This document shows, piece by piece, positions 40,818 to 60,415 of a stretch of 64,000 nt of DNA (positions are counted from its first letter, which is position 1; each line of letters starts with the position of its first letter). Below the pieces are notes generated by a model. The model saw only the letters and a program-made list of their open reading frames with translations, ran no database searches and had not been told where the DNA came from. The translations under genes and the position numbers were made by a program. This DNA is from Amycolatopsis roodepoortensis (lineage in GTDB: Bacteria > Actinomycetota > Actinomycetes > Mycobacteriales > Pseudonocardiaceae): positions 1-64,000 of the forward strand of contig NZ_JADBEJ010000002.1 of NCBI RefSeq assembly GCF_014873915.1. Direction: 5' to 3'.

Positions 40818-40874
40818 GTGTCGCGAAAGCCACTTTCGGGACATCTAGCGTCGCGAAAGTGGCTTTCGCGACAC
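40818..40874. repeat. palindrome family B (CGCGAAAGCCACTTTCG), copy 1
   Basis: 25-base arms (40818-40842, 40850-40874) with one mismatch and loop ATCTAGC. Each arm contains an inner palindrome CGAAAGCCACTTTCG. Read on the opposite strand, this 57-mer is identical to the one at 60265-60321. It lies downstream of the minus-strand FAD monooxygenase gene, 30 bases after its stop. Confidence 0.9.
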
Positions 40875-40903
40875 GCCTTCGGGACCCGAGGCTCCCGAGC
40901 GCT

Positions 40904-42088
40904 TCAGTAATCCTTGAGCACCAAGGCGTTCGCCGCCTCCGTCAGCGGCCGCATGGCCGCCTTCATCACCCGGTCGCGGAACGGCAGATAGGGCAGCAGC
41001 CGCATCGACTGGATCTGCTTCCACTGCCGGAACCGCGTCTGCTTCTTCTGGTTCAGCGAAGCCAGCGCTTGGTTCCGAAGAATGAACGGCCGCATTTCCC
41101 TTTCGTACGAAGCGAAAGCGGCACGGTGGTCAGAAGAAGCAGCCAGTGAGCCGGCGAGCACATAGGCGCCGACGAGCGCCAAACTGGTGCCCTGCCCCGA
41201 AAGTGGCGAAGGCCCGTACCCCGCATCACCGACCAACGCGACGCGGCCGTCGGTGAACCGGTCCATCCGGATCTGCGTCATGGAATCGAAGTACAGCTCG
41301 CTCGACGCCATTTCCCGAAGCAGCCGCGGGATTTCCCAGCCCTGCCCCGGAAATCGGTCCGCGATCAGCTTCCGTTGCTGCTCGACGTCGTGGCGGTCGA
41401 AGTCGAGTTCCGGCGACTGGAAGCCGAGCATCGCCCGAGCCTCGGTGTTCTTTCGCGCGCTGTACAGCCCGGCCAGCTTTCCCGGGGTCATGTGGAAGAC
41501 CTGCCAGCGGTCGAGATCGAGGAAGTTCGGCACGGTGAACACCGCGAGATAGGTGTCCAGGTAGTGCGAAAACTGTTTCTCCGCCCCGAAAACCAGCGAT
41601 CGCACGGCCGAGTGCTGGCCGTCCGCGCCGACGACGAGGTCGAAGTCCCGCGCCTCGCCGCGAGCGAAGGTGACCCGGACACCGTCGGTCTGCTGCGCGA
41701 TTCCGGTGATCCAGTCCCCGTAGACGTACTCGACACCCTCCTGGGCGACCGAGGCCAGCGTGTCGGTGAGGTCGTCCCGCAGGATCTCGACGTCCTCGCT
41801 GTCGGTGAGCCCGCCGGTCAGCGTGTGGTCGGTGACCTTCACGAGCGTTTTCCCCTCGCCGTTCACGAACGACATCCCGCGCATGTCCGTGCTCAGCTCC
41901 CGGAGCCGCCCGAGCACCCCCATCCGGTCGACGACGCCGAGCGCCGTGCCCCGGATGTCGACCGCGTGCCCGCCGACGCGGGGCGCGGGGGCCCGCTCGA
42001 CGACCGTCGGCGCAAAACCGTGCCGACGCAGCCAGTACGCCAGCGTCGTACCGGCTATTCCCGCTCCCGAAATCAGGACCTTCCGCAT
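40904..42088 (-). CDS. FAD-dependent monooxygenase (TetX/aromatic hydroxylase type)
   Basis: 394 aa from the ATG at 42088. Class A flavoprotein hydroxylase. The Rossmann motif is VLISGAGIAGTTLAYWLRRH. The DG-type segment is LVVGADGQHSAVRSLVFG, and the second FAD motif is GRVALVGDAGYGPSPLSGQG. VERAPAPRVGGHAVDIRGTA fits the TetX/PgaE group. NADPH-driven hydroxylation of a phenolic or polyketide compound is expected, perhaps as resistance. It is divergent from a GntR-TetR hybrid regulator, which probably controls it. Confidence 0.9.
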   Translation of the reverse strand: MRKVLISGAGIAGTTLAYWLRRHGFAPTVVERAPAPRVGGHAVDIRGTALGVVDRMGVLGRLRELSTDMRGMSFVNGEGKTLVKVTDHTLTGGLTDSEDVEILRDDLTDTLASVAQEGVEYVYGDWITGIAQQTDGVRVTFARGEARDFDLVVGADGQHSAVRSLVFGAEKQFSHYLDTYLAVFTVPNFLDLDRWQVFHMTPGKLAGLYSARKNTEARAMLGFQSPELDFDRHDVEQQRKLIADRFPGQGWEIPRLLREMASSELYFDSMTQIRMDRFTDGRVALVGDAGYGPSPLSGQGTSLALVGAYVLAGSLAASSDHRAAFASYEREMRPFILRNQALASLNQKKQTRFRQWKQIQSMRLLPYLPFRDRVMKAAMRPLTEAANALVLKDY

Positions 42089-42180
42089 GCCCACTCCCTG
42101 TGTACGGTGTTTTGAAGCACTGCGTACAACGTATGGACACCGCGTCAAAACCCCAGGAAAAGTCGCAGAAAATCCCCAGT

Positions 42181-42190
42181 GCACTAGTGC
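42181..42190. promoter_or_regulatory. palindromic site in divergent promoter region
   Basis: GCACTAGTGC is a perfect 10-bp palindrome. A related half (CTAGTGCGC) lies at 42198-42206 and GTGCACTA recurs near 42226-42233, just ahead of the regulator start. This clustering suggests an operator for the divergent FAD monooxygenase and GntR-TetR hybrid genes. Function is inferred. Confidence 0.5.
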
Positions 42191-42248
42191 GGTCGAGCTA
42201 GTGCGCCCGATAAGGTGCCGTCAGGTGCACTATGGCAAGGAGCCGACC

Positions 42249-43151
42249 ATGACCGAGCCGCCCTACCTGCGGATCGCCGCCGAGATCCGCCGCCGGATCA
42301 CCTCCGGTGAGCTGCGCGAGGGCGACAAGGTCCCGTCGACGCGCCGGATCATCGCCGAATGGGGCGTCGCGATGGCGACCGCGACGAAGGTGCTCGCCAC
42401 GCTGAAACGGGACGGCCTGGTCGTCGCCAAACCCGGCGCGGGCACGGTCGTCGCGAGCCGCAACCGGAAGCCCGCGCCGAGGACCGAGGCGGAGCTGTCA
42501 CGCGAGCGGGTGGTCAAGGCGGCGATCCGGATCGCCGACGCCGAGGGCATCCGCGCGCTCTCGATGCGCCGCGTCGCCTCCGGCCTCGGCGTCGCGACGA
42601 TGGCGCTTTATCGCCATGTCACCGCGAAGGAGGAGCTGATCCTCGAAATGGCGGACCTGGCGCTCGGCGAGATCCGCTTCCCGCCCGAGCCGCCGCCCGG
42701 CTGGCGGGCGCAGCTGGAGCTGATGGCGAGGGCGCAATGGGCCCTGTTCCGGCGGCATCCGTGGCTCGCGCAGGCGCTCTCGATCACCCGCCCGCAGCCG
42801 CTGCCGAACCTGCTCGCCCACGCGGACTGGGCGACCCGCGCGCTCGACGGCCACGGCCTCCCGCCGTCGACGATCATGTACGCGCACATCACGATCTTCA
42901 ACCACGTCCGCGGGATCGCCCTCAGCTTCGAGGCCGAAGCCGACACCGAATCCGGGACGGCGGTCTCGGCCGACGCCTGGCTGGCGGAGCACGAGCCGAT
43001 CCTCTGGGATCTGGTCTCCGGCGGTCGTTTCCCGAACTTCGCCGGTGTCGTCTCGCGCGCCCCGTTCGACTACGACCTCGACACGCTCTTCGAGTTCGGG
43101 CTCCAACGACTCCTCGACGGCTACGCGGCCCTCCTCGCGAAGGCGAGTTAG
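42249..43151 (+). CDS. GntR-TetR hybrid transcriptional regulator
   Basis: 300 aa with two different DNA-binding modules. Residues 5-72 are a GntR winged helix (YLRIAAEIRRRITSGELREG, VPSTRRIIAEWGVAMATATK). Residues about 85-135 are a TetR HTH (VVKAAIRIADAEGIRALSMR, LGVATMALYRHVTAKEEL), followed by a TetR C-terminal helical domain. Such hybrids are known in actinobacteria. It is divergent from the FAD monooxygenase gene, the obvious target. Eleven bases separate it from the aminotransferase gene downstream. Confidence 0.88.
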   Translation: MTEPPYLRIAAEIRRRITSGELREGDKVPSTRRIIAEWGVAMATATKVLATLKRDGLVVAKPGAGTVVASRNRKPAPRTEAELSRERVVKAAIRIADAEGIRALSMRRVASGLGVATMALYRHVTAKEELILEMADLALGEIRFPPEPPPGWRAQLELMARAQWALFRRHPWLAQALSITRPQPLPNLLAHADWATRALDGHGLPPSTIMYAHITIFNHVRGIALSFEAEADTESGTAVSADAWLAEHEPILWDLVSGGRFPNFAGVVSRAPFDYDLDTLFEFGLQRLLDGYAALLAKAS

Positions 43152-43161
43152 CCTCACCCGC

Positions 43162-44325
43162 ATGTCCTTCCCCGGTCCCGCCGCACGTTCCGCCGTCCCG
43201 CCGTTCCATGTCATGGACGTCCTTTCGGCCGCGCAGGCGCGCCAACGCAGCCACGGGGACCTGGTCCCGCTGCTCGCCGGCCAGCCGTCCGCGCCGGCGC
43301 CGCGACCGGTCCTCGAAGCCGCGCAGCGGGCGCTGAAGGACCACAACCTCGGCTACACCGAGCAGCTCGGCATCCCCGAACTGCGCGAGGCCGTCGCGGA
43401 GCACTACAGCCGCACGTACCCGGTCGACGTGAGCCCCCAGGACGTCATCATGACGACCGGTTCCTCCGGCGGCTTCCTGCTCTCGTTCCTCAGCGCCTTC
43501 GAGGCGGGAGACCGGGTCGCGATGGCGCGTCCCGGCTATCCGGCCTACCGGAACCTGCTGAAGGTGCTCGGCTGCGAGGTCGTCGAGTTCGCCACCGGGC
43601 CCGAGACGAACTTCCAGCCCACCGTCGCCCGGCTGGACGAGCTGGGGCCCATCAAGGGACTCATCGTGGCCAGCCCGAGCAATCCGACCGGCACCGTCCT
43701 GCCACCGGGTGAACTCGCGGCGATCAGCGGCTGGTGCGCGTCACACGGCGTGCAGCTGATCAGCGACGAGATCTACCACGGGATCTCCTACGGCGCCGGG
43801 CTCGACTGCGCCTGGCAGTACGGCGACGAGGCGCTCGTCCTCGGCTCGTTCTCGAAGTACTTCGCCATGACCGGCTGGCGGCTCGGCTGGATGCTCGCGC
43901 CCCAGCGGCTGCATCGCGCGATCGACGTCCTGACCGGCAACTTCACCATCTGCCCGCCCGCGGTCTCCCAGCACGCCGCGGTCGCCGCGTTCACCCCGGA
44001 GGCGTACGCGGAGGCCGACGGCCACGTCGAGCGCTACCGGGCGAACCGCGACGTGCTCTTCGCCGGCCTCAAGGGCATCGGCATCGACAAGCTCGCGCCG
44101 GCCGAAGGCGCCTTCTACGCCTACGCCGATGTCTCCGCGTACACGAACGACAGCCTCAGCTGGTGCCAGCGGCTCCTCGCCGACACCGGGGTCGCGATCG
44201 CACCCGGGATCGACTTCGACCCGGTCGACGGCGGAAGGTTCGTGCGGTTCTCCTTCGCGGGATCGCGCGAGGACATCGACGAAGGGGTCCGCAGGCTCGG
44301 CGACTGGCTCGCTCAGCGTCCATAG
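43162..44325 (+). CDS. class I/II pyridoxal-phosphate aminotransferase
   Basis: 387 aa. Fold type I aminotransferase with LGYTEQLGIPELREAVAEHY, TTGSSGGFLL, VASPSNPTGTV and SDEIYHGISYG. The Schiff-base lysine is in LGSFSKYFAMTGWRLGW. The C-terminal EGAFYAYADVSAYTNDS matches aspartate/aromatic-type enzymes. The amino donor is unknown. Just 11 bases from the regulator gene, so probably co-transcribed. The gap 44326-44547 holds a small inverted repeat only. Confidence 0.88.
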   Translation: MSFPGPAARSAVPPFHVMDVLSAAQARQRSHGDLVPLLAGQPSAPAPRPVLEAAQRALKDHNLGYTEQLGIPELREAVAEHYSRTYPVDVSPQDVIMTTGSSGGFLLSFLSAFEAGDRVAMARPGYPAYRNLLKVLGCEVVEFATGPETNFQPTVARLDELGPIKGLIVASPSNPTGTVLPPGELAAISGWCASHGVQLISDEIYHGISYGAGLDCAWQYGDEALVLGSFSKYFAMTGWRLGWMLAPQRLHRAIDVLTGNFTICPPAVSQHAAVAAFTPEAYAEADGHVERYRANRDVLFAGLKGIGIDKLAPAEGAFYAYADVSAYTNDSLSWCQRLLADTGVAIAPGIDFDPVDGGRFVRFSFAGSREDIDEGVRRLGDWLAQRP

Positions 44326-44460
44326 GTGAACCCACGTCGCCAGGGCGCTTCCGAGGCCTTCTCGCGTCGTGTGGGCAGGCGCCCTGCCGCCGTGATAGCG
44401 GGGCCTTCGGCCGAGGCGGGTCCACCGGTCAGGGGGAACCCGGAAATCACCCTGAACGTT

Positions 44461-44492
44461 AGGCGGAACGAAGGCGCTCGCGAGTTCCGCCT
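44461..44492. promoter_or_regulatory. inverted repeat upstream of small membrane protein gene
   Basis: AGGCGGAAC (44461-44469), 14-base spacer, GTTCCGCCT (44484-44492), perfect arms. It lies 55 bases ahead of the 61-aa membrane protein gene and 135 bases after the aminotransferase stop. It could be a terminator or an operator. Confidence 0.45.
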
Positions 44493-44547
44493 GACAACCT
44501 GGACTCACCGGGTCCGCATGGGCACGGCGAGGCAATCGGAGGATGCC

Positions 44548-44733
44548 ATGTTCTGGAAGATCGTCGGCGGGCTGATCCTGGCTTGGGTGGCCTTCATGGT
44601 GCTCGGATCCGTGCTCGGTTTTCTCGTGAAGGCCGTCTTTTGGATCGCCGTCATCGGCGGTGCGGTCTTCCTCGGCACGGCCGCGTATGGCGCCATCAAG
44701 GGCAAGGGCACCCCGAAGCAGCTGCGCCGCTAA
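44548..44733 (+). CDS. small membrane protein (61 aa)
   Basis: Two closely spaced hydrophobic helices (IVGGLILAWVAFMVLGSVLG, AVFWIAVIGGAVFLGTAAYG) and a basic C-terminal tail. Many actinomycetes encode such short bitopic or hairpin proteins of unknown role. CGGAGG lies five bases before the ATG. The stop overlaps that of the convergent methyltransferase gene by four bases. Confidence 0.65.
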   Translation: MFWKIVGGLILAWVAFMVLGSVLGFLVKAVFWIAVIGGAVFLGTAAYGAIKGKGTPKQLRR

Positions 44734-45557
44734 GGCTTACGCGCCACCCCGCCGAGCGACGTGAAGTTCACGGGCGAAAGCGGGGTGAAGCGCGGGCCGT
44801 CCGGCCACCACAGGTGCGGATATGTCAGTCCCGGCTCCATGAGATCGAGTCCCTCGAAGAAGGACTCGATCTCTTCGCGCGTCCGGTACAGCGTGTCCAG
44901 CCCAGTGCCGTTGAAGCGCTTTTCGAGTGACGTCGCGACGTCGGCCGCTTCGGTGCCGTCGGCGGGATTGTGCTGGTGCAGCAGCGCGACGAACGAGCCC
45001 GGCGCCAGCGCGTCGACGTAGGCGCGGACGATCTTCCGCGCCTCGTCGAGATCCTGGATGTGGTGGACGATCGCGCACAGGATCAGCCCGACCGGCCGGT
45101 CGAATTCCAGCCGGTGAGTACGGGCGAGTTCCTCGATGACCTCGGCCGGTTCGGTCAGGTCCGCGGCCGCCATATGCGCGAAGTCGTTGGCCGCCAGCAG
45201 CGCGCGACCGTGTGCCTGGACCACCGGATCGTGGTCGACGTAGACGACCTGCGCCTCGGGGTTGTACCGCTGCGCGACCTGGTGCGTGTTGTCCATGGTC
45301 GGGAAGCCGGAGCCGAGGTCGAGGAACTGGTCGATGCCTTCGCGGTCGGTCAGGTAGCGCACGGTCCGGACCAGCCAGTGCCGGACCTCCTTGGCCATGG
45401 CCCGCGCGTCCGGCGAGATCTCCAGGATCTGGCGCAGCGCCACCCGGTCGGCCTCGTAGTTGTCCTGGCCGCCCATCAGCGCGTCGAAGACCCGCGCGAT
45501 GCTCGGCCGGTCGAAATCGACGGGCACGAACGGGCGTCGGTCCACGGACATGGGCAC
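44730..45557 (-). CDS. SAM-dependent methyltransferase (Methyltransf_19 / DUF574 type)
   Basis: 275 aa. N-terminal VDFDRPSIARVFDALMGGQDNYEADR is the hallmark of the actinobacterial DUF574 family. The SAM-binding motif is QFLDLGSGFPT, followed by VVYVDHDPVVQAHGRALL. These proteins occur in very many copies in Streptomyces and relatives; substrates are unknown. Start is at 45557 or at the Met two codons inside. Confidence 0.88.
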   Translation of the reverse strand: MPMSVDRRPFVPVDFDRPSIARVFDALMGGQDNYEADRVALRQILEISPDARAMAKEVRHWLVRTVRYLTDREGIDQFLDLGSGFPTMDNTHQVAQRYNPEAQVVYVDHDPVVQAHGRALLAANDFAHMAAADLTEPAEVIEELARTHRLEFDRPVGLILCAIVHHIQDLDEARKIVRAYVDALAPGSFVALLHQHNPADGTEAADVATSLEKRFNGTGLDTLYRTREEIESFFEGLDLMEPGLTYPHLWWPDGPRFTPLSPVNFTSLGGVARKP

Positions 45558-45640
45558 CTACCGGGGGTGAATCGGTTCGGACTGGTTCAGCGTAGGTCAT
45601 CCGCTTCACCGCGCGTAAGCGGATGAGCGACGAGGGTGAA

Positions 45641-46231
45641 TTATTCCTCCGAAGAGCCGAAGCCGGATTTCGCCGTGGTCACGCCGACCCAGCGTTCCGC
45701 CCGCATCCCGACCGCCCGCGCACCGTCCACATTGGACTGACGGTCGTCGAAGAACAGGCAGTCGGCCGGTTCGGCGCCGAGTTCGGCGAGCAGGATCCGG
45801 TAGATCTTCGCGTCGGGCTTCATGCAGCCGAGGTCACCGGAAAAGAGCTTCACGCGGAACAGCTTCGCCCATTCCTGCTCGCGCACCCAGCGGCCGAAGG
45901 TGGACGACGCGTTCGAGAGCAGCGCGAGCGCCGCGCCCGCTTCGTGCAGCCCTTCCAGCAGTTCGATGACGTCCGGTTCGAGGTGCGTCCAGCCCTCGAC
46001 GTCGATGCGGGTCAGCTCGTCGGAGAACGCCTTGTCGACCGGGACGTCCAGCGCGCGGCCGATGCTTTGCCAGTACTCGAGGTCCGTGCCGCCGGAGTCG
46101 TACCGGATCCGCTCGGCCCAGTAGTGCGGCTCGAAGTCGGCGACTTCGAGCCCGAAGTTCTTGGCCAAGGTCGGCAGCGCGTCGGTGTGCTCGCTGATGA
46201 CGTCGCCGTAGTCGAAGACGATCCAGTTCAC
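45641..46231 (-). CDS. HAD-family hydrolase
   Basis: 196 aa from the GTG at 46231, three bases after the stop of the threonine aldolase gene on the same strand. HAD subfamily IA: motif I is VFDYGDV (nucleophilic Asp), motif II ALLSNAS, motif III Lys in GCMKPDAKIYR, motif IV CLFFDDRQSNVDGARAVGM. A phosphatase acting on a small metabolite is expected. It is probably co-transcribed with the aldolase. A much longer upstream frame is antisense or out-of-frame to the aldolase gene and is rejected. Confidence 0.87.
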   Translation of the reverse strand: MNWIVFDYGDVISEHTDALPTLAKNFGLEVADFEPHYWAERIRYDSGGTDLEYWQSIGRALDVPVDKAFSDELTRIDVEGWTHLEPDVIELLEGLHEAGAALALLSNASSTFGRWVREQEWAKLFRVKLFSGDLGCMKPDAKIYRILLAELGAEPADCLFFDDRQSNVDGARAVGMRAERWVGVTTAKSGFGSSEE

Positions 46232-46233
46232 GT

Positions 46234-47262
46234 TCAGCCCCCGGTCTTGATGCGTTGAAGGGTTTCTTCGATGTCCGCCGCGGAAAGGTCCCGGTGTGCC
46301 ACGAACCGGATCCGGCCCGAGCTCGGCAGGGTCAGGATCCCGAGGTCGGCCAGCCACGCCAGCCGTCCTTGGAGGTCGGGCGCGCCGACCTGCACGATGT
46401 TGGTCTCGGGAGCGTTGACCTCCCAGCCGTGCTCCGCGAGCCCGGCCGCGAGCCTGGTCGCGTTCTCGTGTGTCTCGGCGAGGTCGTCGATGCGGTCCAG
46501 AGCGACCATGCAGGCCGCGGCCAGCACGCCGCCCTGCCGGACACCGCCGCCGAGCATCTGGCGCATCCGCCGAGCCTTCTCGACGAACTCCTCGCTGCCC
46601 GCCACGACTGAGCCGACAGGTGCGCCGAGCCCCTTCGAGAAGCAAGCCGAAACGGTGTCGACGCCGACCGTCAGCGCCGCGGGCGGGATTCCCAGCGCGA
46701 CCGACGCGTGCCAGATGCGGGCGCCGTCGAGGTGCACGGTCAGCCCGGCCTCCTTCGCCACCGCGACCAGCTGCGCGTGCTCGTCGGGCGGGGTGACCGC
46801 GCCGCCGGCCGTGTTGTGCGTGTTCTCCAGGCACAACAGCGGGGTGCGCAGCGCGTAGTACGGCCCGCGCGGGACGCCGATCGCGGCCGAAAGCGTTTCC
46901 GGCGTCGGACGGCCCGGTCCGGCGTCGTGTTCCAGCGGCTCCGGCATGCCGCCCGCGAGCCAGGCGGCGGACCCGAGTTCGTCGGTGATCACGTGCGAGC
47001 CGCGCGGCGCGAGGAACCGGTCCCCGCGCTGGAGATGGATGCTCAGCGCGATCAGGTTCGCCATGGTCCCGCTCGGCGTCCAGAGCGCGGCGGGCATGCC
47101 GAGGAGTTTCGCGGCGCGCTGTTCGAGCGCGCCGACGGTCGGATCACCGTCGAGGACGTTGTCGCCGACCTCGGCCTTCGCCATGGCCTGGCGCATGACG
47201 TCGTCCGGCCGGGTCACGGTGTCGGAGCGGAAATCGATCTGCGGAAGCGAGCGCGAGGTCAC
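46234..47262 (-). CDS. low-specificity threonine aldolase (beta-eliminating lyase family)
   Basis: 342 aa. PLP enzyme with IDFRSDTVTRPDDVMRQAMA, VGDNVLDGDPTVGALEQRAA, LENTHNTAGGAV, VHLDGARIWHAS and the PLP lysine in SACFSKGLGAPVGS. It cleaves L-threonine or L-allo-threonine to glycine and acetaldehyde. It is divergent from the sigma factor gene across 135 bases and followed by a HAD hydrolase. Confidence 0.92.
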   Translation of the reverse strand: MTSRSLPQIDFRSDTVTRPDDVMRQAMAKAEVGDNVLDGDPTVGALEQRAAKLLGMPAALWTPSGTMANLIALSIHLQRGDRFLAPRGSHVITDELGSAAWLAGGMPEPLEHDAGPGRPTPETLSAAIGVPRGPYYALRTPLLCLENTHNTAGGAVTPPDEHAQLVAVAKEAGLTVHLDGARIWHASVALGIPPAALTVGVDTVSACFSKGLGAPVGSVVAGSEEFVEKARRMRQMLGGGVRQGGVLAAACMVALDRIDDLAETHENATRLAAGLAEHGWEVNAPETNIVQVGAPDLQGRLAWLADLGILTLPSSGRIRFVAHRDLSAADIEETLQRIKTGG

Positions 47263-47397
47263 GGTACGATCACATCACATCGACGGGCCCGCGGTGAATC
47301 TCCTCCCCGGCTGGTCCGCCGCGCCCGCTCATGCAACCGTGGACGCCCCCGGTTCCGTCCTACCCACCGACGAGGCAAGAGCGGAGACAAAACCCGC

Positions 47398-50675: not shown

Positions 50676-50677
50676 CC

Positions 50678-50734
50678 GCGCGTGAAGGCCCCCTTCCCTC
50701 GGCTCAGCCGAGGGAAGGGGGCCTTCACGCGCGT
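50678..50734. repeat. palindrome family A, copy 4 (purB terminator)
   Basis: Perfect 28-base arms (50678-50705, 50707-50734) around a single C. It begins two bases after the purB stop and contains the nested GAAGGCCCCCTTC. It is the longest exact member of the family in the window and a strong candidate terminator. Confidence 0.9.
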
Positions 50735-53291: not shown

Positions 53292-54050
53292 GTGGACGAT
53301 TTCCTCAACACCTTCCTGAACTGGGAGTACATCTGGGAGGTCTTCCCGGACCTTCTCGGGACCGGCCTGCTGAACACGCTGATCCTGTCGGTGTTCTCGG
53401 CGCTGATCGGCACCGTGCTCGGCATGCTGCTGGCCACCATGGGCCTGTCCAGCAAGGCATGGCTGCGCTGGCCCGCCCGGGTGTACACGGACATCTTCCG
53501 CGGCCTGCCCGCGATCCTGACCATCCTGGTGATCGGGCAGGGCGGCGGGATCCTCATCCCGTCGCTGTCGCGGAATCCGTACCCGCTGGGCATTCTCGCG
53601 CTGAGCCTGATCGCCGCCGCCTACATCGGCGAGATCTTCCGCGCCGGTATCCAGAGTGTCGAAAAAGGACAGATGGAGGCCAGCCGCGCGCTGGGCATGA
53701 GCTACACCAAGGCGATGACGCTCGTCGTCATCCCGCAGGGTGTGCGGCGCGTGCTGCCCGCGCTGGTGAACCAGTTCATCGCGCTGGTCAAGGACTCCAG
53801 CCTGGTGTACTTCCTCGGCTTCCTCGCCGAGCAGCGCGACCTGTTCCGCATCGGGCAGGACCTCGCGGCGAACACCGGGAACCTGTCGCCGCTGGTCGCG
53901 GCGGGCGCGGTGTACCTGGTGATCACCGTGCCGCTGACGCATCTGGTGAACTACATCGACAAGAAGCTGCGCACCGGCAAGAAGATCCGGGTCGACGACG
54001 AGGGCGGCGAGCCGGAACTCCTGAACACCGGAAAGGTGCCGATGCCATGA
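53292..54050 (+). CDS. polar amino-acid ABC transporter permease
   Basis: 252 aa from a GTG. HisM/GlnP-type permease with five or so helices. The first is [20 protein letters not shown]. The binding-protein-dependent transport motif is [20 protein letters not shown], with [20 protein letters not shown] and [19 protein letters not shown]. It presumably forms a homodimer because only one permease gene is present. ATGA junction with the ATPase gene. Confidence 0.94.
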
Positions 54051-54787
54051 CCGCCGCCGTACGTTCATCGAGCGTCGAACTCCGCGACATCCACGTCTCC
54101 TTCGGCACCCTCGAAGTGCTGAAGGGCGTGAACCTCAAGGTCGAGAAGGGCCGCACCACCTGCATCATCGGCCCGTCCGGCTCCGGCAAGTCGACGCTGC
54201 TGCGCTGCGTGAACCGTCTCCAGGAGCCCGATTCGGGCGACCTGTTGCTGGGCGGCGAGAGCGTCATCTCGTCCGACCCGGACGCGCTGCGCCAGCGGGT
54301 CGGGATGGTGTTCCAGCATTTCAACCTGTTCGGGCACCGCAGCGTGCTGGACAACATCACGCTGCCGCTGCGCAGCGTCCGCAAGCTCGGCAAGGAGGAG
54401 GCGGCGGAGATCGCGCACGCCCGGCTCGCCGAGGTCGGCCTCGCCGACAAGGCGCCGTACCGGCCGAGCGCGCTCTCGGGCGGGCAGCAGCAGCGGGTCG
54501 CGATCGCGCGGGCGCTCGCCATGGAACCCGAGGTCATGCTGTTCGACGAGGCGACCAGCGCGCTGGACCCGGAGCTGGTCAAGGGCGTCCTCACGCTGAT
54601 GGCGGGGCTGGCCGAACGCGGCCTGACGCTGCTCGTGGTCACCCACGAGATGGGTTTCGCGCGCGGCGTCGCCGACGAGGTCGCGTTTATGGACGACGGG
54701 AAGATCGTCGAACAGGGCGCGCCGGAGGCGATCTTCGACGCTCCGCGGAGCGAGCGGCTGCAGCGGTTCTTGTCGCAGGTGTTGTAG
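54047..54787 (+). CDS. polar amino-acid ABC transporter ATPase
   Basis: 246 aa. GlnQ/HisP-type ABC ATPase: Walker [17 protein letters not shown]-loop [10 protein letters not shown], signature [19 protein letters not shown], Walker [17 protein letters not shown]-loop [16 protein letters not shown]. It closes the five-gene operon of three binding lipoproteins, one permease and this ATPase. A family B palindrome lies 54 bases downstream. Confidence 0.96.
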
Positions 54788-54841
54788 GGCGCCGCCGTTG
54801 CCCCGGGCCCGATCTGTGGGGTCTGTGGGGCCTGGAGCCGG

Positions 54842-54896
54842 TGTCGCGAAAGCCACTTTCGGGACATCAGAGGTCGCGAAAGTGGCTTTCGCGACA
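54842..54896. repeat. palindrome family B, copy 2
   Basis: Arms TGTCGCGAAAGCCACTTTCG.. and its inverse (54842-54865, 54873-54896), one mismatch, 7-base loop ATCAGAG. It has the same inner CGAAAGCCACTTTCG self-palindrome as the other copies; only the loop region differs from copy 1. It lies after the ABC ATPase gene. Confidence 0.85.
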
Positions 54897-54969
54897 TGAT
54901 CACCAGGCCTGGCCACGGCCAACCCCCGGCCAAGCCTGAGCACCCGGCGGTACCGAGCGCCTCGGGTTC

Positions 54970-55013
54970 TCGTGAGTGGCGATTCGGGTTCTAACCCGAA
55001 TCGCCACTCACGA
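54970..55013. repeat. palindrome family C, copy 2
   Basis: Perfect 21-base arms (54970-54990, 54993-55013) around CT. The outer TCGTGAGTGGC and the central GGTTctAACC match the hairpin after purA. The arm interior differs, with the change compensated on the other side. It lies 47 bases upstream of the MOSC gene start, the only family copy here that is clearly in front of a gene. Confidence 0.85.
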
Positions 55014-55059
55014 CCACCTGTACCGACCGACTCCCGGCCAGACTCGTTAACCTGCGGTC

Positions 55060-55947
55060 ATGGCGAGAGTGGCGAAACTGGTCTATTACCCGGTCAAAGG
55101 CTGTGCCGGGACGGCGGTCGAAACGGCCGACGTCACCCCGGCTGGGCTGAGGTTCGACCGTGCCTGGATGGTCGTCTCCCCGGAGGGCGAGTTCCGCAGC
55201 CAGCGCAAGCATCCGGTGATGGCCGCCATCCGGGCCGAGGTGCTCGACGACGGCGCCCGCCTGCGGCTCGCCGCTCCCGGCGTCGAAGATCTCCTGGTCG
55301 AGACGGTCACGGACGGCCCGCGGCATCCTGCCGCGACGTTCACCTGGCAGGGCAAGGGCGTCCACCAGGGTGACGAGGCCGCTGACTGGTTCTCCACCGT
55401 GCTGGGCCTCCCGTCGGTCTTCGTCGGGCTCGCGCCGGAGCACGAGCGCGTCACCAACGGCGAGGTCCCCGGCACCGCCGCCTTCGCCGACGCGCACGCG
55501 ATCCTGCTGACCTCGGAGTCCTCTTTGGACGGTCTGAACGAGCGGATCGCGTCGCGCGGCGCCGAGGCCGTGCCGATGGATCGCTTCCGGCCCAACATCG
55601 TCGTCGCGGGCTGGCCGGAGCCGCACCGCGAGGACGACGTCCGCTCGCTCACCGCCGGTGGCCTCGAACTCGGGTACGCCAAGGTCTGCATCCGCTGCAC
55701 GGTGCCGATGGTCGACCAGGAGACCGGCCGGAAGGCTGGCCCCGAGCCGATCCGGTCGCTCGCCTACTACCGCCGCGAGCCCGAGGGCGGCGTCTCGTTC
55801 GGGATCAAGATGGCCGTGACCGGCCCGGGTCAGGTGTCCGTCGGCGACGAGGTGATCGTGCACTCCTGGGCGGGCCCCAGCCTGAGCACCTCCGACGCCG
55901 AACCGCCGTTCACCGCGACCGCGAGCCGTCCCGCGGAATCGGTGTAG
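55060..55947 (+). CDS. MOSC domain-containing protein
   Basis: 295 aa. The N-terminal MOSC beta-barrel part (KLVYYPVKGCAGTAVETADV, GLRFDRAWMVVSPEGEF) is followed by the MOSC domain, with DRFRPNIVVAGWPEP and the conserved CIRCTVPMVDQETGRK (the molybdenum-ligating Cys is one of these two). It resembles YcbX/mARC proteins, which reduce N-hydroxylated compounds with a sulfurated molybdenum cofactor. The electron donor is not encoded nearby. Its 3' end overlaps the convergent SAM-dependent enzyme gene by 118 bases. Confidence 0.9.
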   Translation: MARVAKLVYYPVKGCAGTAVETADVTPAGLRFDRAWMVVSPEGEFRSQRKHPVMAAIRAEVLDDGARLRLAAPGVEDLLVETVTDGPRHPAATFTWQGKGVHQGDEAADWFSTVLGLPSVFVGLAPEHERVTNGEVPGTAAFADAHAILLTSESSLDGLNERIASRGAEAVPMDRFRPNIVVAGWPEPHREDDVRSLTAGGLELGYAKVCIRCTVPMVDQETGRKAGPEPIRSLAYYRREPEGGVSFGIKMAVTGPGQVSVGDEVIVHSWAGPSLSTSDAEPPFTATASRPAESV

Positions 55948-56636
55948 AGCACGTTCCGGCCCGGCGGCACCGTGCCGAAGGTGTCGCCGACCAGCGCTTT
56001 CACCAGGACGTGCTCGCTGCTGACGGAGACCGTGCCGGACAGCCCCGCCAGTTCGAGGTCGGCGTGGCTCGCGGCGAGCTGGACGTTGCCGAAGTGGTCG
56101 ACCGTGAGCACCTCGGCCACCAGCTTGCCGGGGAACACCGCCACGAACGGGTCCGGCAGGCGCACGAGGTCGTCGACGGGCGGCCCGAACCGTTCGGGGG
56201 CGACGCCGAGCGCGAGATGCGCCGCCGCGGGGGCGAAGACGTCGCGTCCGTGGAAGGTCGACGACGTCACCGGAAGGCGGTATTCCGGCGCCGCGAGTTC
56301 GTACGCGGCTATCACCCCGCTGAGTGTTTCGGCGGCCGGAATGAGGAGCCCGTTGTCCGGGCCGACGAGCATTCCGCGCTCGGTGACCACCACGACACCG
56401 CGCCGAGCGGTGCCGACGCCGGGGTCCACGACGGCGAGATGGACCGACTCCGGCAGATACGGCACGGTCTGGGCGAGTACCTCGGCGCCGGTCCTGACCT
56501 GCTGCGGAGGGATCTCGTGGCTCACGTCGATCACCCGTACGGACGGCGCGATCCGCGCGATCACACCGTGGCACGCGGCCACGAAACCGTCTCTCAGCCC
56601 GTAGTCGGTCGTGAACGAAACGCAGTGGATCGGCAT
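55830..56636 (-). CDS. SAM hydroxide adenosyltransferase family protein (DUF62)
   Basis: 268 aa. Family motifs are SFTTDYGLRDGFVAACHGVI, IDVSHEIPPQQV, VDPGVGTARRG, VGPDNGLLIPAAE, STFHGRDVFAPAAAHLA and DHFGNVQLAA. Members hydrolyse S-adenosylmethionine to adenosine and methionine, and relatives include fluorinase and chlorinase. No halogenase-type insertion was judged from sequence alone. It overlaps the MOSC gene tail to tail by 118 bases and is divergent from purC across 35 bases. Confidence 0.92.
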   Translation of the reverse strand: MPIHCVSFTTDYGLRDGFVAACHGVIARIAPSVRVIDVSHEIPPQQVRTGAEVLAQTVPYLPESVHLAVVDPGVGTARRGVVVVTERGMLVGPDNGLLIPAAETLSGVIAAYELAAPEYRLPVTSSTFHGRDVFAPAAAHLALGVAPERFGPPVDDLVRLPDPFVAVFPGKLVAEVLTVDHFGNVQLAASHADLELAGLSGTVSVSSEHVLVKALVGDTFGTVPPGRNVLYTDSAGRLAVAVNGGSASEVLRLGPAQECTITSSPTDT

Positions 56637-56671
56637 GATCAGCCATCATCCTTGATCGCTAGGGTGCAGCC

Positions 56672-57553
56672 GTGACGACGCTCGAATACCCGAAGATCGC
56701 CGCCGGCAAGGTCCGTGAGCTCTACGCCGTCGATGACGAGCATCTGCTGCTCGTCGCTTCGGATCGGATCTCCGCCTACGACGTCGTCTTCGACACGCCC
56801 ATCCCGGACAAGGGTCGGGTGCTCACCGCGATGAGCGTGTTCTGGTTCTCCCTGCTCTCCGATGTCCTCCCCAACCACCTGGTCTCCTACGAAGACGAAC
56901 GCATCCCCGCCGAGGTCCGCGGCCGGGCGCTGCTGGTGCGCCGGCTGGCGATGCTGCCGCTCGAAGCCGTCGCCCGCGGATATCTCACCGGTACCGGTCT
57001 CGCCGATTATCGCGCGCGCGGCACGGTTTGCGGCGTCGAACTTCCGCCGGGCCTGACCGACTCGTCCCGGCTCCCCGAACCCATCTTCACTCCCGCGACC
57101 AAGGCCGACCGCGGCTCGCACGACCAGAACATCGCCTTCGACGACGTCGTCGGGCAACTCGGCCGCGAACGGGCCGAGGAGGTCCGCGAGGCGACGCTGG
57201 CGGTGTACCGCCGCGGCGCGGAGTTCGCCGCCGAACGCGGCATCCTGCTCGCGGACACGAAGCTCGAATTCGGCATCGACCGCCAGGGGAACCTCGTGCT
57301 GGCCGACGAGGTCCTGACGCCGGATTCCTCGCGCTACTGGCCCGCCGGCGGTTACGCGCCCGACAGCCCGCAGCCGTCGTTCGACAAGCAGCCGCTGCGG
57401 GACTGGCTCACCAGCCCGGCGTCCGGCTGGCACCGCCGGGACAGACCGGAGTCGCCACCCCTGCCCGAGGACATCGTCGCCGCCACGCGGGCGAGGTACA
57501 TCGAGTCCTACGAACGCATCACCGGCCGGTCGCTGCAGGATTGGCCCGCCTGA
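56672..57553 (+). CDS. purC: phosphoribosylaminoimidazole-succinocarboxamide synthase (SAICAR synthetase)
   Basis: 293 aa from a GTG, the longer actinobacterial form. It ligates aspartate to CAIR. Motifs are [51 protein letters not shown], the signature [24 protein letters not shown] and [10 protein letters not shown]. It shares a 35-base divergent promoter gap with the SAM-dependent enzyme gene. Confidence 0.97.
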
Positions 57554-57580
57554 CCTGCGGAGTTCACTCCGACGTCAGGC
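57548..57580 (+). terminator. compound hairpin at purC stop
   Basis: GCCTGAC (57548-57554) pairs with GTCAGGC (57574-57580), and inside it CGGAGT (57558-57563) pairs with ACTCCG (57566-57571). The purC stop codon lies in the outer left arm. It is followed by the DUF2334 gene on the same strand. Confidence 0.5.
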
Positions 57581-57611
57581 GAGCGCAAGCCCGGGCTGGC
57601 TCACTGGTGGG

Positions 57612-58319
57612 GTGGATGCACGTTTGCTGGTTTCCCTGTCCGGCGTGACCACCCGGACGTTGCACCGCTGTGCCGATCTCGCGGCCGAACTCGACCGGCG
57701 CAGGGTCCCGCTGTCGGTGCTCTACGCCGCTCGCACCGGCGAGGGCCCCGTGACCGAGTGGGTCAGGACGCGCCGCACCAACGGCGATTCCGTCCTCCTG
57801 CACGGCTACGACCACCAGGTCCCGCCCACCCATCGCGCCGTCTACCTGGGCAAACGCGCCGAGTTCGCGGCACTTCCCGCGCACGAGGCGCGGCTGCGGC
57901 TGATCGCGGCGAAGGCCGCGCTCGACGCCAACGGCATGGCCGTCGACGGTTTCGCGCCGCCGCGCTGGATCGCGTCGGAGGGCACCGTGCAGGCCCTGCG
58001 TGAGCACGGCTTCACCCTGTGCGCGGACCTGGTCTCGGTGCGGGATCTGGTGTCCGGCCAGGTCCAGCGCGCCAGGGTCCAGGAGTTCGGCGGGCCGTCG
58101 CACCGCACGGAGACCGTCCGCTGTTTCGCGCTGGTGTTGGCCGCCGCCAGGGCCGCCCGCCGCGGCGGGCTCGTCCGGCTCGGCATCGACGCCGCGGACC
58201 TCGCCCGGCCGGGGCTGCGGCAGGCGTTCCTCGACGCCGTCGACGTCTCGCTGGAGAACCGCGCTTTCGGAACCACGTACGGCTCGCTCTCGCGAACGCG
58301 GGTTAAATTGTCGGGATGA
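57612..58319 (+). CDS. DUF2334 / polysaccharide deacetylase-like protein
   Basis: 235 aa from a GTG. LLVSLSGVTTRTLHRCADLA starts a deacetylase-like barrel; GDSVLLHGYDH holds the metal-type His-x-x-x-x-x-His/Asp region, with FAPPRWIASEGTVQALREHG later. It fits the DUF2334 group of NodB-like proteins, which is not well characterised. No signal peptide is present, so a cytosolic role is likely. The ATGA overlap with the TetR gene links them in one transcript. Confidence 0.78.
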   Translation: MDARLLVSLSGVTTRTLHRCADLAAELDRRRVPLSVLYAARTGEGPVTEWVRTRRTNGDSVLLHGYDHQVPPTHRAVYLGKRAEFAALPAHEARLRLIAAKAALDANGMAVDGFAPPRWIASEGTVQALREHGFTLCADLVSVRDLVSGQVQRARVQEFGGPSHRTETVRCFALVLAAARAARRGGLVRLGIDAADLARPGLRQAFLDAVDVSLENRAFGTTYGSLSRTRVKLSG

Positions 58320-59047
58320 CCGACGAGGGTGGCGCACCGGCGACGCTGATGCGGCTCTGGCGGCAGGCGGAGCGCCCGACGCGCGGCAGGCCGTCCGTGC
58401 TCGACATCGACAGTGTCGTGGCGGCCGCGGTGGATCTCGCCGATCGCGAAGGCGTCGTGAACGTGACGCTGGCGAGCGTGGCGAAGGACCTCGGCGTCAC
58501 GAAGATGTCCCTGTACCGCCACATCGGTTCGAAGGCGGAACTGCTGGAGCTGATGGCCGATTTCGCCATCGGTGATCCGCCGCGCGTGGAGCCGGCCGGT
58601 GACTGGCGGACCGAGCTGACCACGCTGGCCGAGGCCAACCGCGATGTCCTGATGAAGCACCCGTGGCTGGTCGAGCTGCCGCTCACCGGCCCTCCGGCCG
58701 GACCGCACGCGGTCGCGTGGATGGACGCGATCCTGCGGACGCTGCGCGACACCGGCCTCGACTGGGGCACCAAGGGCGGGGTCCTGGTGCTGATCGGCGG
58801 CTATGTCCGCCTCGCCTGCGCGCAGGCCATCCAGCTCGCCGAGGGCAGGAAGGGCAGCGAGCTGAGCCAGGCTCAGGCCGAACGGGCCTACGGCAAAGGC
58901 CTCGCCGAGCTGATCGACCCCGAGCGTTTCCCCGATGCCGCGGGCTTCCTGACCTCAGGGCTCGGAGACTCCGAACAGGACTCCGATTTCGACTTCGGTC
59001 TCGGCGTCGTGCTCGACGGCATCGCCGCTCTCGTCGACGCCGGCTGA
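58316..59047 (+). CDS. TetR/AcrR family transcriptional regulator
   Basis: 243 aa. HTH at residues about 40-85 (DSVVAAAVDLADREGVVNVT, AKDLGVTKMSLYRHIGSKAE) with a TetR C-terminal domain. It lies directly before the DUF418 membrane protein gene, and a 12-bp-arm inverted repeat in the 71-base gap is a likely target. It is translationally coupled to the DUF2334 gene. Confidence 0.88.
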   Translation: MTDEGGAPATLMRLWRQAERPTRGRPSVLDIDSVVAAAVDLADREGVVNVTLASVAKDLGVTKMSLYRHIGSKAELLELMADFAIGDPPRVEPAGDWRTELTTLAEANRDVLMKHPWLVELPLTGPPAGPHAVAWMDAILRTLRDTGLDWGTKGGVLVLIGGYVRLACAQAIQLAEGRKGSELSQAQAERAYGKGLAELIDPERFPDAAGFLTSGLGDSEQDSDFDFGLGVVLDGIAALVDAG

Positions 59048-59063
59048 CAAGTACCCGCCTCCT

Positions 59064-59111
59064 CCTTTAGTATCCGCCGGACATTAATTAGTGTACGTTG
59101 GATACTAAAGG
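59064..59111 (+). promoter_or_regulatory. inverted repeat operator ahead of DUF418 gene
   Basis: CCTTTAGTATCC (59064-59075) and GGATACTAAAGG (59100-59111) are perfect arms. The AT-rich centre ACATTAATTAGTGT is itself near-palindromic. The whole lies just upstream of the DUF418 start in otherwise GC-rich DNA. Binding by the TetR protein encoded immediately upstream is inferred. Confidence 0.65.
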
Positions 59112-59118
59112 GGGCTTC

Positions 59119-60294
59119 ATGACATCGACACCGACGAGCGAGCGGGTGCTCGCTCCGGATCTGGCCAGGGGTTTCGCGCTCCTGCTCGTCGCGCTGGCGC
59201 ATACCGCCAGCATCTTCCTTGGGAACACGCCGGGCGTCGATCAGACGCCGGAAGGCCTGGAACGGCCGTACTTCGTGCTGCTGTTCGTGTTCGTCCACGC
59301 GTGCGCGCTGCCGCTGTTCGGCATGATGCTCGGCTACGGCATCGTGCAGTTCGCCAACCGTCAGGAGGCGCTGGGACAGCCGTGGCCGCGCACGCGCGGC
59401 ATCCTGCTTCGCCGTCACGCGTGGCTGCTGGTCTTCGGCGCCGTTGACGGGGTGCTGTTCTTCTCCGGCGACGTGCTCGGCGCGTACGGCGTGATAGGCG
59501 TGGTGTTCACCCTGCTGCTTTTGAGGCGTGGCAAGGGTTTCTACCGGATTCCAGTGCTGTACCTCGGGTTCGGCGTCTGCTATCTGGCCGTGCTGATGTA
59601 CCTGGTGCTCACCGGTGGTTCCGGGAACGCGCCGGTCCCGTCCGTCGAGGACGTGTCATCCCTGGCGCCGACGTATGGCGACGCCGTGCGCGAGCGGCTC
59701 ACGGAATGGCCGATGAGCACGGCGATCCTGCTGTCGTCGATCCTCTTCGTCTGGGTGGGTGCCTGGGCCGCGAAGAAGCGCGTCCTGGAGGAGCCGAATC
59801 GGAAACTGCTCCTCTTCGGTGTGTTCGGCGGTTTCGGCGTCGCGATCGCGGGTGCGTTGCCGATGGGGCTTTTCGCCGGTGACTACGTCGGATTCGACGA
59901 AGGGACCGCCGGGCTCGTCAAGCTGATGTACGAGGGAGCGGGCCTGTTCGGCGCGATCGGTTACATCAGCTTGTTCGGGCTCATCGGTATGGCGGTCGGC
60001 GAGAAGCGCCGCGGCGTCGTGGTCACCGCGATCTCGGCGCTCGGCCAGCGCACGCTGAGCGCGTACCTGTTCCAGTCGGTGGCGTGGCTGATCCTGGCGC
60101 CGCCGTTCATGCTGGGGCTGAGCGGCAGCACGTTCGTCGCGGCGGCGTGCGGGCTCGGCGTGTGGCTGCTGACGGTCGTCGTCGCGTACCTGATGCACCG
60201 GCGGGGGTATCGGGGACCGGCGGAGATCCTGGTGCGGAAACTGGCCTATTGGGCCCCGGAGACTGTGTCGCGAAAGCCACTTTCGCGACGCTAG
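59119..60294 (+). CDS. DUF418-type multi-pass membrane protein
   Basis: 391 aa from the ATG at 59119. About ten hydrophobic segments. It begins VLAPDLARGFALLLVALAHT, the D-x-x-R-G-F-A motif of the DUF418/YeiB group, followed by LPLFGMMLGYGIVQFA and, near the C-terminus, ALGQRTLSAYLFQSVAWLIL. The function of the family is unknown. Transport or acyl-transfer roles have been suggested for relatives. The last nine or so residues (SRKPLSRR) and the stop are encoded by a family B palindrome, so the natural C-terminus seems to have been replaced. Confidence 0.82.
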   Translation: MTSTPTSERVLAPDLARGFALLLVALAHTASIFLGNTPGVDQTPEGLERPYFVLLFVFVHACALPLFGMMLGYGIVQFANRQEALGQPWPRTRGILLRRHAWLLVFGAVDGVLFFSGDVLGAYGVIGVVFTLLLLRRGKGFYRIPVLYLGFGVCYLAVLMYLVLTGGSGNAPVPSVEDVSSLAPTYGDAVRERLTEWPMSTAILLSSILFVWVGAWAAKKRVLEEPNRKLLLFGVFGGFGVAIAGALPMGLFAGDYVGFDEGTAGLVKLMYEGAGLFGAIGYISLFGLIGMAVGEKRRGVVVTAISALGQRTLSAYLFQSVAWLILAPPFMLGLSGSTFVAAACGLGVWLLTVVVAYLMHRRGYRGPAEILVRKLAYWAPETVSRKPLSRR

Positions 60295-60321
60295 ATGTCC
60301 CGAAAGTGGCTTTCGCGACAC
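60265..60321. repeat. palindrome family B, copy 3 (inside 3' end of DUF418 gene)
   Basis: 25-base arms (60265-60289, 60297-60321) with loop GCTAGAT. The 57-mer is the exact reverse complement of the one at 40818-40874. It encodes the end of the DUF418 protein and the TAG stop (60292-60294) in its loop. Confidence 0.9.
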
Positions 60322-60356
60322 TGGCGGCCAACCGCTCCGGCGACCGGACGGCAAGA

Positions 60357-60415
60357 GGCGTTGCGAAAGCCACTTTCGCAACCTTCAACGTTGCGAAAGC
60401 GGCTTTCGCAACGCC
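60357..60415. repeat. palindrome family B variant, copy 4
   Basis: 26-base arms (60357-60382, 60390-60415), one mismatch, loop CTTCAAC. The core GCGAAAGCCACTTTCGC is kept but the flanks changed from GTCGCG to GTTGCG on both sides. It lies 35 bases after copy 3, and between the DUF418 gene and the convergent metallo-hydrolase gene. Confidence 0.85.

Follow-up and report, generated by a model that had tools for sequence, protein, structure and literature searches.

A hairpin repeat family at gene ends in Amycolatopsis as a candidate REPIN-like mobile element

Two identical 57-bp palindromes lie 19 kb apart, in opposite orientation, in a 64,000-nucleotide stretch of Amycolatopsis roodepoortensis DNA (contig NZ_JADBEJ010000002.1, positions 1 to 64,000; referred to here as the window), which raises the question of how the same sequence came to occupy unlinked sites. 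The original prediction, made from the letters alone, assigned both palindromes and two variants to one family (here, family B) and suggested either a mobile REP- or MITE-like element or active gene conversion, with a recent local duplication as the outcome that would speak against mobility.

Anatomy and copy number of the family B hairpin

The following features are used throughout.

40818..40874, forward strand: B1 hairpin, 57 bp, rare loop ATCTAGC, convergent genes on both sides
60265..60321, reverse strand: B1 hairpin, exact reverse complement of 40818-40874
60357..60415, forward strand: B2 (GTTG..CAAC) hairpin, 35 bp from the 60265-60321 element
54842..54896, forward strand: B1 hairpin downstream of a gene that, by eye, resembles an ABC-transporter ATPase
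60249..60430, no strand: 182-bp segment present here; G014, G020, and others lack it, with flanks abutting
59098..60294, forward strand: reading frame whose 3' end enters the 60265 element and stops inside its loop
60442..61077, reverse strand: gene, convergent neighbor of the 60.3-kb pair
54047..54787, forward strand: gene upstream of the 54842 element
40904..42094, reverse strand: gene, convergent neighbor of the 40818 element; a longer form is also read
25140..25192, no strand: family A hairpin; different A kinds at the same site in relatives
50677..50733, no strand: family A perfect 57-bp palindrome; G020 and G014 cleanly lack it
54970..55013, no strand: family C hairpin adjoining the 54842 element

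The 57-mers are exact reverse complements over all 57 bases, with identity breaking off directly at both edges, and their loop, ATCTAGC, occurs in 2 of 76 GAC-N7-GTC hairpins in the sequence examined, namely these two copies. The variants at 54842-54896 and 60357-60415 were borne out, as was the inner palindrome predicted for each arm: CGAAAG-NNN-CTTTCG is present in 8 of 8 arms of the four window copies, with CGG in the second arm at 60357-60415. In B1 and B2, the stem is 10 bp with a 3-nt center, and arm centers are 30 bp apart. When folded as RNA on both strands with ViennaRNA, 4 of 4 window copies formed one long hairpin (-39.3 to -50.7 kcal/mol). The compensated flank changes noted earlier at 60357-60415 are present but are not private to that copy, as they mark the GTTG..CAAC subfamily, which is common in this and other genomes. 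Between positions 40400 and 61000, no Rfam match reached the gathering score (six fell far below it, all microRNA-precursor families), and a known RNA family was rejected as the identity of the element.

B subfamilies keep their pairing through coordinated changes, and the long hairpin is better kept than the two short ones. Of 672 cells in the variable columns, 584 paired as the long hairpin requires (mean of 471 and maximum of 500 in shuffles) and 525 as two arm hairpins require (mean of 456 and maximum of 486), measured against a shuffle control that takes no account of relatedness among copies. Because the search patterns fix the core, its invariance is a product of sample selection. In five B3 copies (four A. 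xylanica loci and one from G070), the long hairpin fits, twice with one inner mismatch; the arm hairpins do not fit beyond the core. Pairing beyond the unit gave 50 of 103 at distance 5 (42.2 expected), 53 at distance 6 (53.9 expected), and 45 at distance 12 (36.0 expected), with p values of 0.03 to 0.05 at two of the eight distances tested (5 and 12). Since this excess is not consistent, a complementary target or flank pairing outside the unit was rejected.

The genome-wide count proposed alongside the original prediction returned 232 two-armed B elements, of which 226 are CCA..TGG dyads, with an arm spacer of 15 in all among the matches listed. Exact B arms number 273 + 272; because the reversed control pattern gave 0 and one shuffle of each of 127 contig 2 intergenic regions gave 0 palindromes scoring at least 14, neither arms nor palindromes can be put down to chance. 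Outside the 226 exact dyads lie 93 of 545 arms (singlet:doublet, ~0.41), a ratio based on exact matches only, whereas the published REPIN criterion (a ratio below 2, i.e., doublets prevail) allowed two substitutions. The exact form was found in 20 of 80 genomes of the genus, with a copy range of 0 to 226, and in 0 of 310 genomes from the other 45 genera of the family. Two relatives whose identity at one locus is 93% and 91% hold 73 and 3 copies, respectively. Among sister genomes, B-rich ones have 226, 110, and 73 copies and B-poor ones 3, 1, and 0.

The repeated unit is the hairpin alone (53 to 57 bp), with sharp edges in 61 B1 and 71 B2 copies. Within this genome, a 40-bp flank is shared at ≥75% by a single B1 pair out of 351 and by none of 136 B2 pairs. 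In many of 21 close pairs, a B1 and a B2 unit are no more than 200 bp apart. A larger composite unit was rejected: although by eye some linkers are similar, the flanks overall are not conserved. In BIMEs of enterobacteria, several palindromic units and their linkers form mosaics at gene 3' ends; B likewise comprises several palindromic units at gene 3' ends, with different sequences.

Because 232 copies exist, the objection from local duplication fails. Duplication or gene conversion of one locus could still be invoked for the identical pair itself, as both copies carry a loop found nowhere else in the sequence examined and a fixed site in a sister family shows conversion (see below). As a full explanation, it is refuted by the 232 dispersed copies, their unrelated flanks, and the closure of the 60.25-kb site in relatives, and we give it next to no chance.

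Occupied and closed sites in relatives

A search for empty sites, also called for at the outset, found closed or hairpin-free junctions in relatives at two places. The 60.25-kb junction (60,249-60,430) is closed in 9 of 13 mapped relatives, where by eye the frame's stop overlaps the opposite gene's stop; here, the upstream frame terminates at TAG (60292-60294) in the loop of the 60265-60321 element. At 54.8 kb, 7 of 18 mapped relatives have no palindrome (spacer, 25 to 43 bp), and 11 of 18 carry palindromes of various families. Since these two sites lack the hairpin in many close relatives, it likely copies itself around the chromosome. A B element occupies the 40.8-kb junction in 2 of 14 mapped relatives (G026 and G024); given this count, the frequent closure at 60.25 kb, and the restriction of ATCTAGC to both copies, 40818 may have been the donor of 60265. 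Some B copies are common to relatives, such as that at 108,883, shared with G020, and the two elements that G049 and A. keratiniphila carry at an orthologous locus.

The clean insertions expected by the original prediction were found only in part. One sister-family site (50,677, family A) is clean and without target duplication, but inserted segments often contain filler DNA outside the unit, as at 60.25 kb, where the insert measures 182 bp against 57 + 59 bp of hairpin. Duplications of ~8 to 14 bp were seen there by eye in G024, G052, and G060 and are poor in A. roodepoortensis. The fixed-length target site duplication that defines a MITE was not observed, with lengths running from 0 to ~14 bp at few sites, judged by eye.

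Several hairpin families, unrelated to one another, occupy the same gene-end niche, B among them. The suggestion of gene conversion found support in sister family A at 25.1 kb, where subfamily labels were assigned by eye and G002 appears mixed. The in-place replacement of family A hairpins shows that conversion, not insertion alone, alters these sites. Sites were scored as "same" on one shared 12-mer, which covers differing family A kinds. In G020, one hairpin was swapped for another at four sites between flanks 91 to 99% identical. The hairpins of G014 are the least certain, because N gaps and adapter-like letters lie within them. Separately, some family hairpins are conserved across species (in G020, all 55 bases match at 108,792 and 40 of 41 at 109,131), and several hairpins present as single copies, T-runs being seen in at least one, remain in place between species.

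Several of these features would also follow if a structure-specific nuclease cut hairpins and end joining captured the fragments at other breaks, blind to sequence and by a route shared among families: unrelated families occupy one niche, unit edges coincide with hairpin edges, fillers and variable duplications occur, and hairpins are exchanged between conserved flanks. The CCA..TGG form of 226 of 232 elements and the small number of subfamilies argue instead for descent from few masters, making such capture quite improbable.

Position relative to genes

Sampled B elements lie mostly behind stop codons, as the check on position revealed. With both neighbors called by a home-made, unvalidated codon-usage caller, 76 elements comprised 45 in convergent gaps, 30 in co-directional gaps, 1 in a divergent gap, and 0 within genes (87 were sampled from 80 of at least 85 genome stretches, and 11 at locus edges were left out). 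A. roodepoortensis alone gave 27 convergent, 15 co-directional, 1 divergent, 0 within genes, and 1 at an edge (44 elements). Palindromes in gaps of 40 to 1,000 bp follow the same pattern: on contig 2, whose gaps were not picked for B, they occupy 19/24 convergent, 18/69 co-directional, and 0/34 divergent gaps; in G020, 29/38, 36/115, and 0/65; in G014, 19/40, 22/125, and 3/66. With contig 1 stretches, which were picked around B elements, the counts are 45/58, 37/159, and 2/92. The median distance to the nearest stop is 18 bp, and 91 of 115 co-directional palindromes are nearer the upstream stop.

This enrichment and stop-codon proximity, together with the family hairpins conserved between species, favor reading B elements as functional bidirectional, U-tract-less (I-shaped) terminators, selected at convergent gene ends, whose structure is kept even as the sequence drifts or is copied. 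U-lacking hairpin ends have been reported in Streptomyces clavuligerus (PMC8269248). As described there, such I-shaped ends resemble B in their strong hairpin, missing U-tract, and 3' location; they are defined by transcript ends, whereas B is a repeat family known from DNA sequence. The consensus flanks of 61 B1 and 71 B2 copies contain no T-run directly behind the hairpin, and B therefore lacks the U-tract of an intrinsic terminator. Set against this reading are the many empty junctions: counting compact ones, convergent junctions without a palindrome amount to 17/36 on contig 2, 51/96 with contig 1, 48/67 in G014, and 38/67 in G020. In three genomes, the number of palindromes at each convergent junction appears Poisson-like on inspection, in keeping with random insertion; orthologous junctions without any hairpin exist, and the hairpins that stay put between species include several single-copy ones. 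We consider terminator function unlikely as the origin of the pattern. B hairpins are likely transcribed as 3'-end hairpins, in which case a copy would form a strong predicted hairpin without a U-tract on either strand; for that reason, it may additionally terminate or protect the transcripts of its two neighbors.

Candidate mobilizers and closest known systems

REPINs are paired REP sequences that form hairpins (Bertels and Rainey 2011, PMC3116915). As described in that paper, they resemble B in being inverted palindromic doublets that can form either a single long hairpin or a pair of short ones, with compensatory changes, and in being extragenic, with doublets outnumbering singlets, hundreds of copies, and no gene of their own. 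B elements are likewise inverted doublets of a conserved palindromic unit folding as one hairpin, with 0 of 76 sampled copies in called genes and 232 copies in the genome. They differ in spacing (in GI REPINs, the first residues of the 16-mers are 71 bp apart), in host, and in that B1 and B2 units are often near each other. Moreover, REPINs are tied to RAYT transposases, whereas the REP-associated tyrosine transposase that the original prediction led us to look for was not detected, as PF01797 matched 0 of 80 genus genomes (5 of 14 controls); a RAYT-driven REPIN was rejected as regards the mobilizer, with the Y1/RAYT domain absent from 80 of 80 genomes. CGTC-tagged REPs (PMC3733652) are similar in their short palindromes, mostly opposite dimers, co-directional or convergent gaps, and lack of a dedicated transposase, but their stems are 8 to 9 bp with 4- to 5-nt centers, and neither the unpaired CGTC tag nor the CCA-like tail was recognized in the B1 and B2 consensus, whose ends (TGTCGCG/GTTGCG) are paired. 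Membership of B in this class was rejected on these grounds. The main text of that paper does not contain the words actinobacteri-, Streptomyces, or Frankia. Our literature search found no published description of B repeats, although most subscription papers were outside its scope and absence from print is unproven.

No recurrent gene family was found beside B elements (the largest cluster holds 5 of 210 adjacent genes, and common families, ABC ATPases among them, appear at most 5 times), and a partner gene was rejected, since no family recurs as a partner transposase would. One of the 210 adjacent genes is flanked by B on both sides, at the only place in the loci examined where two B dyads lie 500 to 3,000 bp apart. 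This locus is orthologous in A. keratiniphila (L166), G049 (L316), and A. decaplanina (L165, one B element only). The gene has no transposase match in Pfam or NCBIfam, and its sole match, AbiEi_4, is subthreshold; from its sequence, this AbiEi_4-like gene is a lead, not a demonstrated mobilizer. Neither an excised nor a circular intermediate was found. Movement as a classical MITE, by a DDE transposase that recognizes terminal inverted repeats, would explain the palindromic ends and high copy number, and IS30-like genes (named by eye) adjoin two B elements; with no fixed target duplication, no recurrent linked transposase, and a single B-flanked gene of the kind just described, we find it very hard to credit.

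In all, we think it probable that B is a 53- to 57-bp hairpin repeat spreading as a nonautonomous, REPIN-like mobile element, which an enzyme is predicted to move in folded, single-stranded form. From the mobile REP-like reading, copy number, the sharp unit, placement behind stop codons, and closed sites stand; the tyrosine transposase and uniformly clean insertions do not. Counting against mobility are the lack of any mobilizer or intermediate found, filler DNA, inconsistent duplications, some shared copies, and family A conversion. The folded hairpin would be the moving intermediate, purifying selection would restrict copies to gene 3' ends, and conversion between dispersed copies may later rewrite them. 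More tentatively, and with considerable doubt, one machinery that reads the folded shape and not the sequence might copy, insert, and swap many unrelated hairpin families at gene 3' ends without a transposase; if so, gene ends would be quickly changing hairpin slots in one Amycolatopsis clade.

Competing families at gene ends, beside stationary single-copy hairpins, offer a clean contrast between selfish insertion and terminator function. Because turnover is visible between species ~93% identical, it should be measurable in laboratory strains. REPIN anatomy, niche, and fast turnover, in a genus without a detected RAYT domain, ask what moves such repeats.

Copy number, unit and fold of family B

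The original prediction described two exactly reverse-complementary 57-mers and two variants, and the sequence bears out the coordinates of all four family B hairpins (dyads, when two arms are present):

40818-40874, subfamily B1, first 57-mer
54842-54896, B1, variant
60265-60321, B1, reverse complement of the first 57-mer
60357-60415, subfamily B2, variant

Across this genome (9.11 Mb in 8 contigs, with the window at the start of contig 2), exact B arms occur 273 times forward and 272 times in reverse, compared to 0 matches for a reversed control pattern. The two 57-mers belong to a large family: 232 two-armed elements were counted, 226 of them of the form CCA..TGG, and the arm-to-arm spacer is 15 bases in all copies listed. 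The exact dyad is present in 20 of the 80 genomes of the genus (1 to 226 copies per positive genome) and in 0 of the remaining 310 genomes of the taxonomic family (45 genera); at least 85 named stretches carry B, and Amycolatopsis is the source of every one among the matches listed. Copy number shifts quickly between close relatives, and genomes holding 73, 110, 50, 50, 3, and 17 copies have 93 to 90% identity to this genome at one window locus.

When 61 B1 and 71 B2 copies were aligned by their core, conservation dropped to background where the outer end of the hairpin is reached, indicating that the repeated unit is the hairpin itself (TGTCGCG..CGCGACA for B1; GTTGCG..CGCAAC(A) for B2). A third subfamily, B3, found in five copies (four at A. 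xylanica loci, the fifth in genome G070), has AGCC..GGCT outer and TCAG..CTGA inner. Among the variable cells of 84 distinct copies, 584 of 672 are paired in the long hairpin (shuffles, ≤500) versus 525 in the arm hairpins (shuffles, ≤486), which makes the long fold the better preserved. B3 fits the long hairpin, with one inner mismatch in 2 of 5 copies, and does not fit the arm hairpins beyond the core. B1 often keeps a near-loop mismatch (C in one half, G in the opposite half; 25 of 40 scored copies), which gives the element a direction. Of the 21 close pairs found within 610,634 bp, many combine a B1 element with a B2 element near it. At L118:6089-6191 (A. decaplanina), a B element carries a tandem third arm (a duplicated 30-base unit). 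The B2 element at contig 2, 108883-108937, is common to the relative G020, and three bases at its arm tip are inverted between the two genomes (first arm centre TGG here and CCA in G020).

Hairpin families at gene ends

For gene position, we sampled 87 distinct B elements from 80 named loci and contig 2, leaving out 11 at locus edges. The 76 placed comprise 45 convergent, 30 co-directional, and 1 divergent (∼20 divergent expected from intergenic bases, 25,250 of 97,877 bp), with 0 within genes and the nearest stop codon at a median of 50 bp. Of the 44 dyads examined in this genome, 27 lie between convergent and 15 between co-directional genes, 1 is divergent, 1 is at a locus edge, and none is inside a gene (median, 62.5 bp to the nearest stop). 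The frame 59098-60294 runs into the 60265 element and ends at a TAG in the hairpin loop, the element supplying this gene with a new C-terminal tail and stop codon. In relatives where this site is closed, the upstream frame's stop overlaps that of the opposite gene, as judged by eye.

A search for palindromes of any sequence (score ≥14) in stretches of this genome, G014, and G020, with contig 1 stretches picked around B elements, retrieved 247 (126 convergent, 115 co-directional, and 6 divergent). On contig 2, palindromes occupy 19/24 convergent, 18/69 co-directional, and 0/34 divergent gaps; shuffled contig 2 gaps gave 0 of this score, and gene segments gave 0/48 (this genome), 0/94 (G014), and 1/94 (G020). 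Ten clusters of at least three members took in 202 of the 247, several small clusters being a single orthologous site in three genomes. Unrelated families share this niche, including A (21/80 genomes; 181 copies here) and C (70/80 genomes; 115 copies here). In 22 distinct C copies, whose ends are fixed by the search pattern, the middle varies, and 136 of its 176 cells are paired (shuffles, ≤105). The apex GGAC..GTCC can be common to unlike stems. At 32504-32560 and in the stretches L011, L015, and L198, unlike stems carry one apex, GGAC-RTTCARY-GTCC, as though the two parts could be swapped as modules. Family D consists of inverted arrays of ∼21-base tandem repeats (CACGCGTGATC.. type), which form imperfect hairpins of 100 bases where convergent genes end; arrays of this sort occur at other places in relatives:

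17775-17938, family D array
40578-40807, family D array

At a score of ≥18, palindromes lie in 39/58 convergent gaps here and 26/38 in G020; other B-bearing genomes gave 4/7 (G070) and only 1/6 (G076), and six genomes (G003, G053, G061, G080, G086, and G138; distant members of the genus plus three further genera) gave 4/35 combined. Some long hairpins in G014 (L047-L066) contain N runs and adapter-like letters, which suggests that hairpins of this kind interfere with sequencing.

Closed sites and exchanged hairpins

The original prediction proposed a mobile element or active gene conversion. Empty sites exist: at 60.25 kb, where two-sided mapping was achieved for 13 of 29 relatives, the two genes abut in 9/13, and 4/13 have other insertions. 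By eye, duplications of about 8 to 14 bp flank insertions at this site in G024, G052, and G060, and none flank the family A insertion at 50,677. At 54.8 kb, 7/18 relatives have a 25- to 43-bp spacer with no palindrome, and 11/18 have palindromes of families A, B, C, D, or E (by motif) in differing combinations. At 40.8 kb, 2/14 mapped relatives (G026 and G024) have a B element. Since the loop ATCTAGC occurs only in the two 57-mers among 76 GAC-N7-GTC hairpins examined, the 60265 copy was probably derived from 40818.

Hairpins also differ in kind at shared places. Of 45 palindromes mapped from this genome, G020 gave 12 unmapped, 17 same, 10 other palindrome, 4 empty, and 2 without, and G014 gave 22, 5, 11, 4, and 3, respectively, where "same" means one 12-mer in common and "empty" took in orthologous hairpins by short length (two G020-to-own and one G020-to-G014). 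At 25140, 80527, 99550, and 173364, G020 has a different hairpin between tight flanks (91 to 99% identical). At 25.1 kb (18 genomes asked; two-sided mapping failed in 3), all 15 mapped relatives hold a family A hairpin in the identical place, with flanks at 82 to 98%. By eye, these hairpins sort into three kinds (in 3, 4, and 8 genomes) that do not obviously follow relatedness, a pattern, in family A rather than B, which points to conversion between dispersed copies over insertion.

Candidate mobilizers, possible terminator role and probable spread

REPINs, inverted pairs of REP units, are ascribed to REP-associated tyrosine transposases (RAYTs) (PMC3116915). The RAYT domain, PF01797, was found in 0 of the 80 genomes of the genus. 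CGTC REPs are described as likewise lacking a dedicated transposase, and the B consensus does not match their tag as given there (PMC3733652). E. coli REPINs are reported even where the genome lacks a RAYT gene, at fewer copies (PMC8049555). By analogy, it is thinkable that B is a decaying family after RAYT loss; the closed sites in relatives and the top copy number in this genome, which lacks the domain, favour recent spread over decay.

Just one gene, of about 312 codons, was found to have a B dyad on each side; it is orthologous in A. keratiniphila and G049 and has a sub-threshold AbiEi_4 Pfam match:

L166:4777-5925, AbiEi-like gene locus, B2 dyads 1104 bp apart
L316:5042-6189, AbiEi-like gene locus, B2 dyads 1103 bp apart

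In G049, both dyads share one rare loop, and A. decaplanina (L165) has only one of the two. The C-terminal half, judged by eye, may be nuclease-like. The likeness to a RAYT with REP flanks is in layout only. At two places, B elements adjoin genes that we take by motif to be IS30-family-like transposases (L184:9849-10658 and L185:9555-10610); IS30 favours palindromic targets.

The position of the hairpins suits a terminator, and hairpin transcript ends without a U-tract have been reported in Streptomyces (PMC8269248). Some family hairpins are kept between species, as at 108,792, where 55/55 bases are conserved in G020. An ordinary bidirectional terminator with T-runs lies at contig 2, 114841-114887, conserved in this genome, G014, and G020. 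Contig 2 convergent junctions with 0, 1, 2, and 3 palindromes number 17, 15, 3, and 1 versus 18.5, 12.3, 4.1, and 0.9 expected; occupancy looks Poisson-like in three genomes, as judged without a formal test, and G020 has two convergent junctions with at least four. Because of this Poisson-like occupancy, because half or more of convergent junctions have no palindrome, and because several single-copy hairpins (e.g., 106017 and 206590) keep their place between species, we rank selfish spread first and see a terminator effect as a by-product, tolerated or useful.
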